From Planctomycetota bacterium (lineage in GTDB: Bacteria; Planctomycetota; Phycisphaerae; Phycisphaerales; SM1A02), in the NCBI GenBank assembly GCA_016872835.1, contig VGYX01000009.1, positions 1-64,000 on the forward strand: DNA of 64,000 bases. The letters run 5' to 3'. The notes beneath the pieces were generated by a model. That model worked only from the letters and a program-made list of their open reading frames with translations. It was not told where the DNA came from and made no database searches. Positions 49,035-60,120 of this stretch are shown piece after piece. Made by a program: the position numbers and the translations under genes. The stretch's first letter is position 1; each line of letters starts with the position of its first letter.

Positions 49035-49535
49035 ATGAAGTGCGATCACTGCGACAAGCCAGCGGTGGTGCATGAGGTGGTGATCAAGGGCGGTGTCACC
49101 AGCGAGGTGCATCTGTGCGCGGAGCACGCGGCGCAGAAGGGCTATCAGGTGCCCCCCGTGCCGGTCACGCAGTTGCTGGCGCAGTTCACGGGTCAGGTGC
49201 CGTCGATCGCCACGCCCCAATCGCGCAAGGCTGCGGCGCCTGCACGATGCCCCGTCTGCGGGCTTGGCTTCGCGGAGTTCCGCCAGACCGGCGTGCTTGG
49301 ATGCCCCGGCTGCTACGACGCGTTCATGCCGCAGATCGGCGCCGTGATCGAGCGCGCGCAGGCGGGCGCCGTGAGCCATGTGGGGCGAGCGCCCGTGCGA
49401 CTGGAGGGACTTGCCGACCGCGCCGCGATGCGATCGAAGCTGCTGCAGGAACTCGAGACCGCGGTGACCACCGAGCAGTACGAGCGTGCCGCGAGCCTTC
49501 GTGACCGCCTGAAGAACCTCGGCGAGGAGACCTGA
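49035..49535 (+). CDS. mcsA: Protein arginine kinase activator McsA
   Basis: A 166-residue zinc-finger protein. A first metal site uses C3, C6, C28 and H31; the second uses C72, C75, C90 and C93. A UVR motif (LLQELETAVTTEQYERAASL) occupies about 136-160. This is the McsA layout; McsA activates the arginine kinase McsB and bridges it to ClpC. The first finger ends in His rather than the fourth Cys that I expect from B. subtilis. Its stop shares one base with the mcsB start (TGATG). Confidence 0.88.
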   Translation: MKCDHCDKPAVVHEVVIKGGVTSEVHLCAEHAAQKGYQVPPVPVTQLLAQFTGQVPSIATPQSRKAAAPARCPVCGLGFAEFRQTGVLGCPGCYDAFMPQIGAVIERAQAGAVSHVGRAPVRLEGLADRAAMRSKLLQELETAVTTEQYERAASLRDRLKNLGEET

Positions 49536-50572
49536 TGCGGCTGCGCGAGGAATCCTCGACGGTGCAGGTCGGTCCCGAGGCCGACGTGGTGATGAGTTCG
49601 CGCATCCGGCTGGCCCGCAATCTCGCCGGCTTCCCGTTCGTGGGGCGCGCCAGCGACGCGCAGCGCCACGAGGTGCTGCAGATGGTCACGCGTGCGCCGC
49701 TTGGCCAGGCCTTCGGCGGCGGACTCACCTGGGTGAACATGGCGCAGACCACGCCGCAGGAGCGGCAGCTGCTCGTGGAGCGCCATCTGGTGTCGCGTCA
49801 CTTCGCCGACAGCACCGTGCCCCGCACCGTGGGCGTGGACGCCGAAGAGACGCTCAGCGTGATGGTGAACGAGGAAGATCACCTGCGCATCCAGACGATC
49901 CTGCCCGGCGCGCGCCTGGATCACGCTTTCGAACGTGCCCGTCTGTTCGATCAGGAGATCGAGAGTTCGATCGACTTCGCCTTCTCCGCGCGCTGGGGTT
50001 ACCTGACAGCCTGCCCCACCAACGTCGGCTGCGGCGTGCGTGTGGGCGTGATGCTGCATCTGCCCGGGCTTCGCTACACCGGCGAGATGGAGCGCGTGAA
50101 GCGCGCCGCGAAGGACATGCATCTGGCGATGCGCGGCTTCTACGGCGAAGGCACCGAGGCCGTCGGCAACTTCTATCAGGTGAGCAACCAGCTCACGCTG
50201 GGCTTCAGCGAGGACGACCTGCTGCGCCGCTTCACGCAGGAGACCGTGCCGCAGCTGGTCGAGTACGAGCGCACCGCGCGCCGCATGCTGGTCGAGTCGA
50301 ACCGGCCGCTGCTCGAGGACAAGGTCTTCCGCGCCGCGGCCACGCTGCGCGCGGCGCGACTGCTGGGCTCCGAGGAGGCCACCAAGCTGCTGGCGAACAT
50401 CCGTCTGGGCATCTGCATGGAGCTGATCCCCGACGTCTCGCTGGAGCTGGTGCAGCGCCTGCTGCTGCAGGTCCAGCCCGCGCATCTGGCGCGCATCGAC
50501 GCCACCGCGACCGACGACGACAAGGGTCGCATCGCGCGGGCGGCGCTGGTGCGGCGGGCGTTGCGAGCGTGA
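49535..50572 (+). CDS. mcsB: Protein arginine kinase McsB
   Basis: A 345-residue phosphagen-kinase-fold enzyme that phosphorylates arginine in proteins, marking them for ClpCP. Family blocks: VVMSSRIRLARNLAGFPF (about 18-35), VNEEDHLRIQ (111-120), YLTACPTNVGCG with C160, and GEGTEAVGNFYQVSNQLTLG (204-223). The C-terminal helix reads DKGRIARAALVRRAL, where B. subtilis has the phosphoarginine-sensing RDxxRA motif; here Arg-Asp are replaced by Gly-Arg, so allosteric control may differ. Creatine/arginine kinases have a larger N-terminal domain, so McsB is the better call. clpC lies 17 kb away on the same strand. Confidence 0.92.
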   Translation: MRLREESSTVQVGPEADVVMSSRIRLARNLAGFPFVGRASDAQRHEVLQMVTRAPLGQAFGGGLTWVNMAQTTPQERQLLVERHLVSRHFADSTVPRTVGVDAEETLSVMVNEEDHLRIQTILPGARLDHAFERARLFDQEIESSIDFAFSARWGYLTACPTNVGCGVRVGVMLHLPGLRYTGEMERVKRAAKDMHLAMRGFYGEGTEAVGNFYQVSNQLTLGFSEDDLLRRFTQETVPQLVEYERTARRMLVESNRPLLEDKVFRAAATLRAARLLGSEEATKLLANIRLGICMELIPDVSLELVQRLLLQVQPAHLARIDATATDDDKGRIARAALVRRALRA

Positions 50573-53883: not shown

Positions 53884-55365
53884 TCACTCGCCTCCTGGAA
53901 GGCTGGCCGAGGCGCCTGCGACCGAACCGGTGCCGCCCTGCTCCACGTCGGCGCCCGGGTAGTAGCGCGCAAGGATCTGGCGGTAGCCGCGGCCGGACTT
54001 GCCCATCGCCTCGGCGCCGTACTGGCACATGCCAGCGCCGTGGCCGTGGCCGCGGCCCTCGAAGACCACCTTGCCGCCCTCGATGCGCGGCGCCACGAAG
54101 CCGCTCTTCAGCGAATCCTTCGAGCCGCTCGCGCCCGCGTTCACGGCGTAACGCAGGTCTTCCGAGTCCCACACCACCTTGCGTCCTCGCGGATCGGTGA
54201 TGCGGAACGAGACGGGCCTGCCCGCCGCGTTCTCCTCGGCGGTGGTGATCGACTTCACGCCGGAGACGCCACCAAGATCCTTGCGACCCTCGCGCGTGGC
54301 CCACGCATCGAGCCTGCGCGCGAATTCGGTCGTTCCCAGCGCGACCTTCCACCGTGCGGTCGGCGCCTTCTCGCAGCATCCGCGTGGACGCGCGTCCTCA
54401 CGGCCATCCACGGTCAACGGCACGATGTCCATCCAGCTGCCCTCACGGATCGCCTCGGTGGCCGAGGCGGGCGCGCCGCCACAGCAGCTGCTGTAGTACG
54501 CCGGCACCACGCGACCGTCGAACATCAGGTACTGGCCCGCCGTGTCCTGCACCGCGCGGCGGCTGGTCGCGTCAGCGGTGGCGCCGATCCACGCCTGGCT
54601 GGCCTGCCCCGCCACCACGTCGTAATGGCGCCGACCTGCCCACCACGCGTGCTCGCACAGCGCGTAGCTGCGCGCGGCCACGGCCTGCGCGCGATAGGCG
54701 TCGTCGCTCCAGCCCTTGTAAAGCTCCTTCGCAAGCACGCCGGGCAGGTAGGTCTCCATCGGCACCGCGAAGACCAGATCGGCCGCGTCGCCACCCTCGT
54801 CGGGTCGGCGCACCAGCGTGGCGTCACCGGGCCAGTCGCCGCCCTTCCATTGGATCTCGCGGTTCCAACCCTTCATGGGCTCGATGTGAAGCGGGCCATC
54901 GCCTGCCACCGAGACGCGCGAGGCGCCGTCACCGGATTCCGCCACCGACCAACCCTGCGCAGCGGGACGGATCGAGACGGGCGTTCGGAACGTGCGGCCT
55001 GCCGCTTCGCCATCCGGCTTCACGAAGAGCCAGCCCGAGGGATGCGACAGCACGATCGGCTCGTTGCGCACCATGGCCACGCGCACGCGAATCACGGGCT
55101 CCTGCGTGGGAAGCGTCGGACGCAGCGCCGGTGGCTTGGGGCGCTCGGGTGCCTTGGGTTGCACGGCCACGACAGGTCCCGCCGGCGACGACGGGGCACG
55201 CGCGCTCTCGAGCGGACTGGGTGGCAGCGAGGGGGAGCGCGAAACGCCCGATCCCTGACAGCCCGATGGCAGCAGCACCACGCTCCACGCGACGGCGGCC
55301 GTTCCCAACGCGGCCAGCAGCCAGCGGTGGTACGAGGCGGGAATGCGCCACCCGTTGTCGCCCAT
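53884..55365 (-). CDS. SpoIID/LytB-domain protein
   Basis: A 493-residue envelope protein. The N-terminus has a signal anchor (WLLAALGTAAVAWSVVLL) with a possible lipobox Cys (LLPSGCQG), then a Pro-rich linker. The SpoIID domain extends over about 200-480: AVPMETYLPGVLAKELYKGW, QAVAARSYALCEHAW, AYYSSCCGGAP, and GRGHGHGAGMCQYGAEAMG near the end. In Bacillus SpoIID is a lytic transglycosylase acting on peptidoglycan stripped of stem peptides; homologues are widespread in non-sporulating bacteria. GAGGAG lies 8 bases before the ATG. It follows the TPR-alphaCTD gene by 37 bases. Confidence 0.88.
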   Translation of the reverse strand: MGDNGWRIPASYHRWLLAALGTAAVAWSVVLLPSGCQGSGVSRSPSLPPSPLESARAPSSPAGPVVAVQPKAPERPKPPALRPTLPTQEPVIRVRVAMVRNEPIVLSHPSGWLFVKPDGEAAGRTFRTPVSIRPAAQGWSVAESGDGASRVSVAGDGPLHIEPMKGWNREIQWKGGDWPGDATLVRRPDEGGDAADLVFAVPMETYLPGVLAKELYKGWSDDAYRAQAVAARSYALCEHAWWAGRRHYDVVAGQASQAWIGATADATSRRAVQDTAGQYLMFDGRVVPAYYSSCCGGAPASATEAIREGSWMDIVPLTVDGREDARPRGCCEKAPTARWKVALGTTEFARRLDAWATREGRKDLGGVSGVKSITTAEENAAGRPVSFRITDPRGRKVVWDSEDLRYAVNAGASGSKDSLKSGFVAPRIEGGKVVFEGRGHGHGAGMCQYGAEAMGKSGRGYRQILARYYPGADVEQGGTGSVAGASASLPGGE

Positions 55366-55402: not shown

Positions 55403-56329
55403 TCAGTCGAGCTGACGCAGGGTCAGGCCGTTGGCGGCCAGGACCTGTCGCAGCTCGTCCAGGCTGGTCTGGCCGAAGTTCTTCACGCCCATCAGCTCGG
55501 CCTCGGTGCGCGCGGCGAGGTCACCGATGGTATGGATGCCGAGCAGCTGGATCGCCTTGCGAGCGCGCACGGACAGCTCGAACTGGGCGAGCGACTTGTT
55601 CAGGATCTCCTCGCCGACGGAGTCCTTCAGCTTCTCCAGCATCTCGGTGCGGATCTTGTCGTAGTGGCCGCGATCGAGCTGCTGGCCCAGACGCAGGCCC
55701 TTGGCCGAGAGCATGCTCTTGATCTCGACCAGGCTCGTCTCGCCGAAGTTCTTGTAGCTGAGCAGCTCCGCCTCGCTGATGCGAAGCAGGTCGCCGAGCG
55801 TGCGGATCGCCATCTTCTTCAGGCAGTTGCGCGCACGCACGGACAGCTCGAAATCGGTGACCGGCGTGTCCATGAGCGCGTCACGACGGGCGCCTTCACG
55901 GGCGATCTCCTCGTCGTACAGCATGTCCTTGCTCGCCTTCACGTCCTTCATGAACAGACGGCCGCGTCCGTGGGTCGGGTTGACCTCGAGCACCTTCTTC
56001 AGCATCTTCTCGGCGCGCGTGAACTGGCCCGCGTCCTCCAGCAGCACGGCCATGTTCACGAAGGCCTGCATCGGCGGGCTCGGAAGACGCGTGCACTCCT
56101 CGTAGGTGCGCAGCGCATCATCGTCGAGGCCGAGTCGGTCCTGCAGGCGCGCGCAGGCGAAGATGTTCTTCGCGGTGCGGTCCTTCGCGGCAGCTTCCTT
56201 CCACGCCTCGAGGGCCTGGACCCAGTGACCATCCGCCTCAGCCTGCTGCGCCTTCTTCACGAAGGGTGCGGCGGCGGCGGGATCGTTGCGGTTGGCTCCG
56301 ATGACGGTGTCGAGACCTGCGTTGGCCAT
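55403..56329 (-). CDS. TPR protein with two RNA polymerase alpha C-terminal (alphaCTD) domains
   Basis: A 308-residue soluble protein. Residues about 20-130 are TPR-like helices (VQALEAWKEAAAKDRTAKNI; AFVNMAVLLEDAGQFTRAEK). Residues 155-218 and 245-308 each match the alphaCTD of RNA polymerase. In the first copy the E. coli DNA-contact residues are kept: R265, N268, C269, L270, K271, N294, G296, S299 and E302 correspond to R165, N168, C169, L170, K171, N194, G196, S199 and E202; K298 is Thr. The second copy keeps the Arg, Gly, Ser and Glu but not Asn/Cys. It lacks the alpha N-terminal domain, so it is not RpoA. A DNA-binding co-regulator is inferred. Confidence 0.8.
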   Translation of the reverse strand: MANAGLDTVIGANRNDPAAAAPFVKKAQQAEADGHWVQALEAWKEAAAKDRTAKNIFACARLQDRLGLDDDALRTYEECTRLPSPPMQAFVNMAVLLEDAGQFTRAEKMLKKVLEVNPTHGRGRLFMKDVKASKDMLYDEEIAREGARRDALMDTPVTDFELSVRARNCLKKMAIRTLGDLLRISEAELLSYKNFGETSLVEIKSMLSAKGLRLGQQLDRGHYDKIRTEMLEKLKDSVGEEILNKSLAQFELSVRARKAIQLLGIHTIGDLAARTEAELMGVKNFGQTSLDELRQVLAANGLTLRQLD

Positions 56330-56385
56330 GGCTCTCCCTGACTGCAATTCGTGGGGTACGGAAGCGAAACGGACGGCCGATGAGT

Positions 56386-57837
56386 CTACCGCGCCGACGC
56401 GATCGGCTCCAGCAGCCGGATCCGCCGCCAGGCCCCCCGCTCGAACCGCAGCGCCATCCACACGCCATAGACGATGATGTACAGGCTGGCGCCCACCCAG
56501 GGCCCCACGCTGGTCCAATCGGGCCGGTTCCACGCCAGCCACGCCCCCAGCGCCACGATCAGGCTCCAGCTGAGCACGATGGTAGCCACACCGGGCACCA
56601 GGGTGTCCCCAGCCCCGCGCAGGGCACCGGTGTAGACGATGCCGATCGCGTCGAAGGTCTGGAAGATCGCCGCGCAGATCATCAGGCGCGAGCCGATCGT
56701 GATCACCTCGGCGGCGACCGCGGCATCGTCGGCGTCCACGAACACACCGACCAGCGAGTCGCGCCAGATCGCCATCGCGAGTCCGCACACCGTCATGTAG
56801 ACGATCGCCATGCCCAGCGCCCAGTGCGCACGGTTGGCGGCAAGGTCGGGCTTGCCCGCGCCGATGTATCGGCCCACGAGCGCCGTGGTGGCCACGCTGA
56901 AGCCGACCGCGGGCATGAACGAGAGGTGCATGTACCGCAGCGTGCTCCAGCCCGCCGTCAGATGAAACTCGCCGAAATGCCCCACGAGCACCGTCATGAA
57001 GATCGCCCAGCAGATGATCTCGTTGCCGAACTGCACGCTGACCGGCCAGCCCAGACGCATCAGGCCACGCAGCGACGACGCCTTCGGTCGCGCGGCGTGC
57101 CACGTGTCGAGCTCCTTCGCCAGCCGGCCGAACAGGAACACCGCGAGTGGCACGCACGCCTCGACCAGGGTGCCGCACACGGTGGCGATCGCCGCGCCAT
57201 ACACGCCCAGCGCGGGCACGCCCGGCACACCGGGCCAGCCCCAGTCCTCCGGGCCTTTCTCGCCGTAGATGAGCACGTAGTTCAGCAGCACGTTCACCAC
57301 GTTGCCCGAGATGGCAGCCACGGTGATCAGGCGCGGCCGCTGCAGGCCGAAGAAGAAGTTGCTCATCGCCTTGCCCACCAGGCCCGCGATCGAGCCGTAA
57401 CTCAGCACCAGCGCGTACTGCAATTCCAGCGCACACAGCTCGGGCGAGTGGCCCAGCGACTCGAAGAACCAGGGCAAGGCCAGCGACCACGGGATCATCA
57501 CCACGACCCAGCTCGCGAGCGCCAGATGGACGCCCGCCCAGCCGTAGCCCGCGATCGCGTCGCGTCGGCCCGCGCCCACGCTCTGGGCCACGAACGTGTT
57601 CACGACCGACAGGAACCCGAAGAGGAACGACTGCGGCGTGAAGGCCCAGATGCCGCCGTTGCCCTGCGCCGCCACCTCGAGCGGCCCCACCTTCGACACC
57701 ATGAGCGAGTCCACGAACTGCATCACCGTGAAGCTCAGCATGGTGAGCACGGTGGGCCATGCCTGCGACCACACCTCACGCACCGGGTGGCGCGCAGGCA
57801 CATTCATGTACTCGATGACGGGCTCGCCCCCGATCAC
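56386..57837 (-). CDS. MATE-family efflux transporter
   Basis: A 483-residue protein with twelve hydrophobic segments of the MATE/NorM fold: VLTMLSFTVMQFVDSLMVSKVG, FLSVVNTFVAQSVGAGRRD (helix 2-3 region), a second repeat from WPVSVQFGNEIICWAIFM, VATTALVGRYIGAGKPD, and GALRGAGDTLVPG. MATE pumps export drugs or other cations in exchange for H+ or Na+. The start is taken as GTG at 57837 because it overlaps the nuoG stop as GTGA, the coupling used elsewhere in this genome; the ATG at 57807 would remove ten residues. Its stop is 56 bases before the TPR-alphaCTD start. Confidence 0.88.
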   Translation of the reverse strand: MIGGEPVIEYMNVPARHPVREVWSQAWPTVLTMLSFTVMQFVDSLMVSKVGPLEVAAQGNGGIWAFTPQSFLFGFLSVVNTFVAQSVGAGRRDAIAGYGWAGVHLALASWVVVMIPWSLALPWFFESLGHSPELCALELQYALVLSYGSIAGLVGKAMSNFFFGLQRPRLITVAAISGNVVNVLLNYVLIYGEKGPEDWGWPGVPGVPALGVYGAAIATVCGTLVEACVPLAVFLFGRLAKELDTWHAARPKASSLRGLMRLGWPVSVQFGNEIICWAIFMTVLVGHFGEFHLTAGWSTLRYMHLSFMPAVGFSVATTALVGRYIGAGKPDLAANRAHWALGMAIVYMTVCGLAMAIWRDSLVGVFVDADDAAVAAEVITIGSRLMICAAIFQTFDAIGIVYTGALRGAGDTLVPGVATIVLSWSLIVALGAWLAWNRPDWTSVGPWVGASLYIIVYGVWMALRFERGAWRRIRLLEPIASAR

Positions 57838-59634: not shown

Positions 59635-59955
59635 TCAGGTGCGGCGTCGCCGCAGGAAGGCGCTCAGCGCGACCATGCAGAGGGCGGATGGACTGGGGAC
59701 GGCGAAGCCGACCCCGAGCTGATACTGCGAGGCGCCGTTCCAGTAGCCATTGGTGCCCGACTGATGGAAGAGCCGGTTGGCCGAGAAGTCGGAGAATCCA
59801 GCGGCAGTCGACGATCGCGTCGTCGTCCCGTTGAAGGCCATCGCGGAGCGCTCCTGGGTGAGCAGCACGACATCCGCGGTCGCGGAATTCGTGAGGCCCA
59901 AGCCACATCCGATCAGTGCCAAAGATGTGATGGCGCAGAGACGGCGCATCCTCAT
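59635..59955 (-). CDS. Small exported PEP-CTERM-like protein
   Basis: A 106-residue protein with a signal peptide (RLCAITSLALIGCGLGL, cleavage near TNSATA). The short mature part is rich in Ser, Thr and aromatics (VVLLTQERSAMAFNG, FSANRLFHQSGTNGYWNG). The C-terminal sorting-like end is VPSPSALCMVALSAFL plus RRRRT. Function unknown; it is probably surface-directed like the protein at 17470. Purine-rich GGGGGGAAAGGGAA precedes the ATG at 59955; an ATG two codons later is the alternative. It has its own intrinsic terminator and a hairpin-rich upstream region. Confidence 0.7.
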   Translation of the reverse strand: MRMRRLCAITSLALIGCGLGLTNSATADVVLLTQERSAMAFNGTTTRSSTAAGFSDFSANRLFHQSGTNGYWNGASQYQLGVGFAVPSPSALCMVALSAFLRRRRT

Positions 59956-60120
59956 TTCCCTTTCCCCCCTCGCGGGCCCATCTTGTGGGGACCGCTGTTG
60001 TTCGTTTCCGACCTTCGCCCCGTCTCTCCCAAACGGGGTCGCTGCCGTGCGCCTTTCCCGGAGCGCACGACACATCCCTGAGCCTTGCGGCTCCTCCTTC
60101 TCTCCCTCTCCACGCAGGGT
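59956..60120 (-). promoter_or_regulatory. Hairpin-rich upstream region of the small exported protein
   Basis: The 277-base gap 59956-60232 contains no supportable gene. Within it are two stems on the likely leader: CGTGCGC/GCGCACG (60046-60052 with 60063-60069) and CCCCGT/ACGGGG (60018-60023 with 60033-60038). I see no match to a riboswitch class that I can recall, and no clear promoter. A structured 5' leader is possible. Confidence 0.3.

Follow-up and report, generated by a model that had tools for sequence, protein, structure and literature searches.

The gene that we studied lies at 55403..56329 on the minus strand of a 64-kb stretch of planctomycete DNA, which we analysed at its full length and will call the window. 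It is an intact open frame with an ATG start, it encodes 308 amino acids plus a stop codon, and just upstream of the ATG is a Shine-Dalgarno-like sequence, AGGGAGAG (56332..56339). The protein contains a TPR region (residues 17-120; 55970..56281), which forms three helix pairs according to the AlphaFold2 helices and Pfam. Next come a helical connector (residues 121-155; 55865..55969), which was delimited from the family consensus and has model helices at 121-137 and 140-153, and two copies of the RNA polymerase αCTD, namely CTD1 (55706..55882) and CTD2 (55436..55615). All of these features are on the minus strand. The two copies were assigned from their matches to PF03118 (74.5 bits for CTD1 and 64.5 bits for CTD2) and from residue counts, as well as from a structure match in the case of CTD1. 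The connector carries a stretch that is conserved in the family (KDxxASxxMxYDE in the consensus of the homologues).

The gene that follows it on the minus strand (53884..55365) encodes a SpoIID-domain protein (PF08486, E = 4.2e-18). Upstream, also on the minus strand, is a gene for a MATE-family transporter (56386..57810, with an approximate start; PF01554, E = 6.6e-40). We found no σ70-type promoter or terminator pattern around the TPR-αCTD gene, and Rfam and tRNA scans of the 64-kb window came back empty. Elsewhere in the window, a small secreted-looking protein (59635-60075, minus strand) without a Pfam hit ends in VPSPSALCMVALSAFLRRRRT, which we take to resemble a PEP-CTERM-type sorting tail, and the gene at 49535-50572 (plus strand) presumably encodes an McsB-type protein arginine kinase.

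PF03118 matches the C-terminal half of the protein twice, and the protein as a whole reaches E = 4.5e-39 and 132.5 bits, as compared to a curated cut-off of 23.8. The TPR families of Pfam match within residues 31-125 (30.9 bits for TPR_2, with a cut-off of 27), and a phmmer search against the PDB links the protein to the αCTD of E. coli with E = 1.3e-15. There is no αNTD in the protein: residues 17-120 are TPR according to both Pfam and AlphaFold2, and the RpoA equivalog models match the αCTD part only, below their cut-off (131.4 bits at best versus 302). A complete RpoA of 338 amino acids is encoded on another contig of the same genome (C8:64585). Of the three PF03118 domains in this genome (2.39 Mb, 98.9% complete), two are in the TPR-αCTD protein and the third is in RpoA. 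So the original prediction, which was made from the window's sequence and which proposed TPR helices and two αCTDs without an αNTD, is borne out.

Because the identical domain architecture recurs in the aligned homologues at 41-88% identity, we consider the combination of a TPR with a double αCTD to be far beyond chance. Across the family, the spacing from CTD1 to CTD2 is 83-113 residues. The window groups with the Phycisphaerales, judging by the names of its best-matching genomes, and we divided 144 distinct tandem proteins into 91 from a Phycisphaerales set (by our own labelling) and 53 others. The median number of residues that precede CTD1 in the open frame is 190 for the Phycisphaerales set versus 317 for the others, so the window's protein is a short form, and the homologues in other orders have a longer N-terminal part.

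AlphaFold2, given 40 aligned homologues, models the TPR helices, the helical connector, and the two αCTDs with a mean pLDDT of 86.3; with a pTM of 0.45, the placement of the domains relative to each other is unsure. Within TPR residues 21-120, the block means of pLDDT are 93-97. When the whole model is searched with Foldseek, most of the matches are TPR-bearing structures, designed as well as natural. Because the TPR fills that list, we folded the C-terminal 169 residues by themselves (mean pLDDT 80.7, pTM 0.50). All 50 of the Foldseek rows listed for this half are polymerase or αCTD entries, and some of them align longer stretches of the α chain with a large rmsd. The best rows place the CTD1 model at 0.7-1.0 Å from solved αCTDs over 64-66 residues, with 48-50% identity (5uaq, 9zum, and 3k4g; the chains 9zum_B and 3k4g_A are at 0.7-0.8 Å). 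VIA-align reaches Z = 13.1 (67 residues at 0.8 Å), and its rows span only residues 4-81 of the model, which is CTD1. In the model, then, CTD1 has, as had been proposed, the fold of an αCTD and not just that of a generic helix-hairpin-helix. We identify CTD2 as an αCTD from its match to PF03118 and from the helices in the model; the structural comparison barely tests it.

We counted residues in the 144 tandem proteins and in 25 planctomycete rpoA (the rpoA known as L135 was dropped). The offset of 100 between CTD1 and E. coli α that was originally proposed is correct: R165, N168, C169, N194, G196, S199, and E202 correspond to R265, N268, C269, N294, G296, S299, and E302 of E. coli. It is also correct that CTD2 keeps only part of this set, with R255, N284, G286, S289, and E292 retained and with K258 and A259 in place of N268 and C269. 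We take R265, N268, N294, G296, S299, and E302 to be the contacts of the αCTD with UP-element DNA, and R265 to be the key residue. CTD1 of the window keeps all six of these, and CTD2 keeps all but N268.

Across the phylum, the residues of CTD1 that had been singled out as contacting DNA or activators are nearly invariant. The arginine at position 265 is found in 143 of 144 copies of CTD1, in every CTD2, and in all 25 rpoA. Outside the Phycisphaerales set, N268, C269, M273, N294, G296, S299, and E302 of CTD1 are each present in 53 of 53 proteins; within that set, 34 of 91 members have T instead of N268. In CTD2, N268 is mostly lost and C269 is often lost, and position 268 is basic (K or R) in 133 of 144 copies. 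Position 267 carries a basic residue (R or K) in all 144 copies of CTD1 and in 140 of 144 copies of CTD2, as against 5 of 25 rpoA (both copies in the window have R). Position 297 is acidic (E or D) in 142 of 144 copies of CTD1, whereas 23 of 25 rpoA have a basic residue (K or R) there. K298 is replaced by T in both of the window's copies, and 24 of 25 planctomycete rpoA have T there as well. One homologue (L026, from G220) has lost R265 from CTD1 (SEQARD for SVRxRN), along with much of the KNFGETSL motif, and its CTD2 is intact.

The net charge on eight DNA contacts of the αCTD is about 0 for CTD1, +0.8 to +1.0 for CTD2, 0 for rpoA, and +1 for E. coli. Because CTD1 and rpoA have the same charge, the DNA face of CTD1 is not clearly more basic than that of α. 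We had considered a more basic face (+3.7 to +4.8 versus +1.5 for rpoA), and we have withdrawn this: the twelve positions were partly chosen post hoc, and E. coli scores +3.0 at them.

CTD1 also holds a pair of acidic residues, D259 and E261, that we take to face σ. These are present in 140 of 144 (D259) and 136 of 144 (E261) copies, with E and D in the rest, and the window retains them as D159 and E161. In rpoA, the pair is looser and mixed. The RpoD of the window's genome has RKLQHPVRR in region 4, with an arginine retained at the place of σ70 R603, which we assume to be the residue that contacts the αCTD (the numbering is assumed as well).

These residues bear on two other explanations. The protein might be an adaptor: having given up DNA binding, its αCTDs would attach to NusA, activators, or other partners. 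The αCTD is described as also binding proteins such as NusA-AR2 (PMC4642336), and the loss of N268 from most copies of CTD2 would suit this role, but 287 of 288 domains retain an arginine at 265, and we think that an adaptor of this kind is very unlikely. Alternatively, the tandem αCTDs might compete with α by occupying UP-like DNA or the activators that bind αCTDs, which would dampen strong promoters. CTD1 does retain the DNA contacts as well as the 287-type residues (E286, E288, and L289). However, M273, Y292, and E297 are conserved specifically in CTD1 and differ from α, so CTD1 is not a simple mimic of α. Furthermore, a positive core role would fit the near-universal presence and the high constraint that we describe below at least as well. 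A competitor of α seems quite unlikely.

The TPR-αCTD protein is near-universal in the Planctomycetota genomes that we examined. There is a strong match (E ≤ 4.1e-26) in 232 of 246 genomes, including the window's own, and coverage was seen for the 150 places listed. With a threshold of 1e-10 or better, the count rises to 242; ten of these have E values above 1e-20 and probably match rpoA only, and four genomes have no match. All 14 of the genomes without a strong match are drafts, with completeness of 59-92%. Of the 134 genomes with completeness of at least 90% and contamination of at most 5%, all but G031 and G143 have a strong match. When the 14 were searched again with a family profile (along with G091 and G244), at least five of them (G008, G031, G143, G176, and G223) yielded fragments, within open frames of 44-153 amino acids, that are probable broken copies of the gene. 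In the remaining genomes, we saw only TPR matches or longer frames, which might be rpoA. We also counted αCTD domains in 59 planctomycetes: there are three in 45 genomes, four in 6, six in 2, two in 3, and one in 3. Having exactly three fits one TPR-αCTD protein plus one rpoA. This set is centred on the "Limnohabitans" genome G246 and is largely made up of the same planctomycetes as the set of 246, so the two are not independent.

Among the best 80 of 584 confirmed places in named genomes, the names are those of planctomycetes except for L080, L082, L096, and two of "uncultured bacterium." The names of G246 ("Limnohabitans" MAG13, with L082) and G248 ("Cyanobacteria" N2_1, with L096) do not fit: both have the TPR-αCTD gene and a planctomycete-like rpoA (L137 and L136, respectively), and a phylum search that was centred on G246 gave what looks like a planctomycete set. 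L080 is from a bin labelled as Dehalococcoidia (G247, CALMIW010000452.1) and is 52% identical to the window's gene. Because the rpoA of this bin (L135) is of a different type, the bin is probably contaminated. It was the only match among 121 genomes in a set that was centred on the Chloroflexota. As this test covers one other phylum, we do not claim that the protein is specific to planctomycetes. No phage or plasmid record covers 80% of the query, and among the matches listed, the named features are rpoA and the others are unnamed.

CTD1 is more constrained than the αCTD of the polymerase itself. We compared 19 distant genomes that have both genes (our own picks and the window's genome, with four close relatives dropped and with one of the two rpoA-like genes of G308 used). 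Pairwise identity averages 0.74 in CTD1, 0.50 in CTD2, and 0.52 in the αCTD of rpoA, and CTD1 is more similar than the αCTD of rpoA is in 170 of 171 pairs of genomes. In the same 19 genomes, CTD2 is not better conserved than the αCTD of rpoA. (The two rpoA-like α subunits of the planctomycete genome G308, L147 and L148, are different from each other, and one of them has a long acidic C-terminal tail.) In a tree of 72 domains, including 26 from rpoA, CTD1, CTD2, and rpoA each fall on one side of a branch, with support of 99/93, 98/85, and 95/97; the tree has just 63 columns and its bootstrap had not settled. Because the three groups separate, the duplication that gave rise to CTD1 and CTD2 is ancestral and older than the sampled planctomycetes.

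The codon-usage score of the TPR-αCTD gene is +0.047, within the range of 22 ribosomal genes (0.020 to 0.164), and rpoA scores +0.081. Eight of nine other genes in the window have negative scores, and the other, which we called FabF from its sequence, has +0.062. Ribosomal-like codon usage is a weak sign that the gene may be highly expressed, and the signal is small. The protein might instead be associated with the nucleoid, with the αCTD pair binding the minor groove of AT-rich DNA so as to pack the chromosome and with no contact to polymerase. This would suit a protein with two DNA-binding modules, with codon usage in the ribosomal range, and with a near-universal presence in the phylum. But packing does not need D259 and E261, which CTD1 holds more tightly than α does (they could still be structural), and we consider a nucleoid role to be rather unlikely.

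Around the gene, the neighbors differ between orders. Within the window's order, we considered 71 loci (70 of the 80 that were fetched plus the window, with ten left out; many contigs end near the gene). Of the 71, 53 have a gene for a MATE transporter within 2.5 kb and in the same orientation, and 34 have spoIID there. MATE upstream is a trait of this order, as represented by the Phycisphaerales set. In planctomycetes from outside the window's order, Pfam identifies ruvA directly downstream of the TPR-αCTD gene, and in the same orientation, at 10 of 20 loci. The idea that there is no shared neighbor outside of the window's order was rejected: a downstream cluster from 13 loci mostly does not overlap the gene, and ten of its members are RuvA according to Pfam.

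RuvA_N matches 232 of the 246 planctomycete genomes. In 67 of the 86 genomes that have both genes among the matches listed, the start of the ruvA domain lies 14-429 bp past the TPR-αCTD match, on the same strand. In the rest, ruvA is elsewhere on the contig (2 genomes) or on another contig (17 genomes). The 67 genomes carry 33 family labels. Because the 86 are the overlap of two score-ranked lists of 150 places each, and the list for RuvA leaves out the window's order, 67 of 86 should not be read as a rate for the phylum. The original prediction likened the protein to the stand-alone αCTD proteins of planctomycete genomes. In fact, nearly every genome of the phylum has the gene, and it usually adjoins ruvA. 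RuvA_N is weak in G000 and in other genomes of the window's order and class (E = 2.1e-4 to 7.7e-9, with no match in two of them), while the 150 listed places in other planctomycetes score 1e-10 or better. Possibly, RuvA has diverged in those lineages in which its gene no longer adjoins the TPR-αCTD gene.

This adjacency opens another reading, in which the αCTD pair would be the DNA-binding module of a recombination or repair factor that works with RuvA and RuvB at Holliday junctions, with the TPR as a scaffold. To bind DNA, RuvA itself relies on helix-hairpin-helix elements. Besides the pairing with ruvA, ruvB is the next gene in L120, and L126 and L133 keep the pair even though other genes follow it (a class II tRNA synthetase in L126 and phosphoglycerate dehydrogenase in L133). 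On the other hand, the full order in L120 is the TPR-αCTD gene, ruvA, ruvB, queH, spoIID, tgt, and yajC, and given the presence of queH, spoIID, tgt, and yajC, a position in this cluster need not imply a common task. Parts of the cluster are also kept behind the gene in L114 (tgt and secDF), L115 (tgt), and L118 (spoIID). So the spoIID that lies behind the gene in the window, where ruvA is not, is probably a remnant of the cluster. Also, we know of no role at junctions for the σ-facing pair or for αCTD-type DNA residues. A recombination role is the strongest of the rival explanations, and it is still an unlikely one.

Our preferred explanation, to which we assign a probability of roughly 0.4, is that the TPR-αCTD protein is a free-standing accessory DNA-binding factor that was built from parts of the polymerase and that most likely acts in transcription, at promoters. 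The reasons are the nearly invariant arginine in both copies, the retained σ-facing pair, the near-universal presence, and a constraint that is greater on CTD1 than on the CTD of α itself. On AT-rich (UP-like) DNA near promoters, the tandem αCTDs would insert the arginines that are equivalent to R265 into the minor groove, the equivalents of D259 and E261 in CTD1 would also face region 4 of σ, and the TPR scaffold and the conserved connector would dock on the polymerase or on another partner. We infer that the protein binds DNA, that it binds polymerase or σ, and that it activates rather than represses. Several points count against an accessory transcription factor. Its commonest neighbor, ruvA, is a recombination gene and not a transcription gene. 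CTD2 has mostly lost N268 and often C269, position 297 of CTD1 is acidic, L026 has lost R265 from CTD1, T replaces N268 in 34 of 91 members of the Phycisphaerales set, the charge of CTD1 is no higher than in α, and the placement of the domains in the model is unsure.

A bolder version, which we think is unlikely, is that the RNA polymerase of the Planctomycetota has in this protein an additional, dissociable subunit. The TPR protein would supply two αCTDs and would do most of the reading of upstream promoter DNA, and the CTD of α itself would have drifted. If so, then the tie to ruvA would connect promoter reading with recombination or repair.

The protein points to a component that is missing from our picture of how a whole phylum either transcribes or recombines its DNA, and these ideas could be tested in culturable planctomycetes. 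It would be a case in which DNA recognition by αCTDs has left the polymerase and passed to a free protein. For structural work, it also provides a tandem αCTD that occurs naturally. Databases annotate such αCTD proteins automatically. What is new here is the near-universal presence in the phylum, the adjacency to ruvA, and a constraint on CTD1 that exceeds that on the CTD of α. Using narrow word searches of open-licence papers in PMC, we did not find a description of the TPR-αCTD protein. The passages that we consulted from a paper on PVC signatures (PMC3444138) do not mention it.

The closest known relative is the αCTD of RNA polymerase (PF03118; E. coli 3k4g and 1lb2, and Caulobacter 9zum on AT-rich DNA), which has the same sequence family, fold, and DNA-contact residues. 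The domains that we describe differ in that they have no αNTD, are in tandem on a TPR scaffold, have R267 and (in CTD1) K272 and M273, and group separately in the tree from the 26 αCTDs of rpoA. PRK07758 (NF005841), a stand-alone αCTD-like hypothetical protein, likewise lacks an αNTD, but the TPR-αCTD protein scores 51.4 bits, below the cut-off of 115, and the model has 95 positions, which leaves no room for a TPR. The BREX protein PglW (NF033442), which the library names as a BREX system kinase, has an αCTD-like stretch in a non-polymerase protein; the TPR-αCTD protein matches two short stretches of it, with 36 bits versus a cut-off of 990. Finally, AfsR from Streptomyces is a TPR-bearing activator that acts at the surfaces of the polymerase αCTD and σ region 4, and the accessible part of its description treats the αCTD and UP elements alongside it (PMC10936776). 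According to that part, AfsR contacts α's own αCTD and is not described as having αCTD domains itself, whereas the TPR-αCTD protein carries two.
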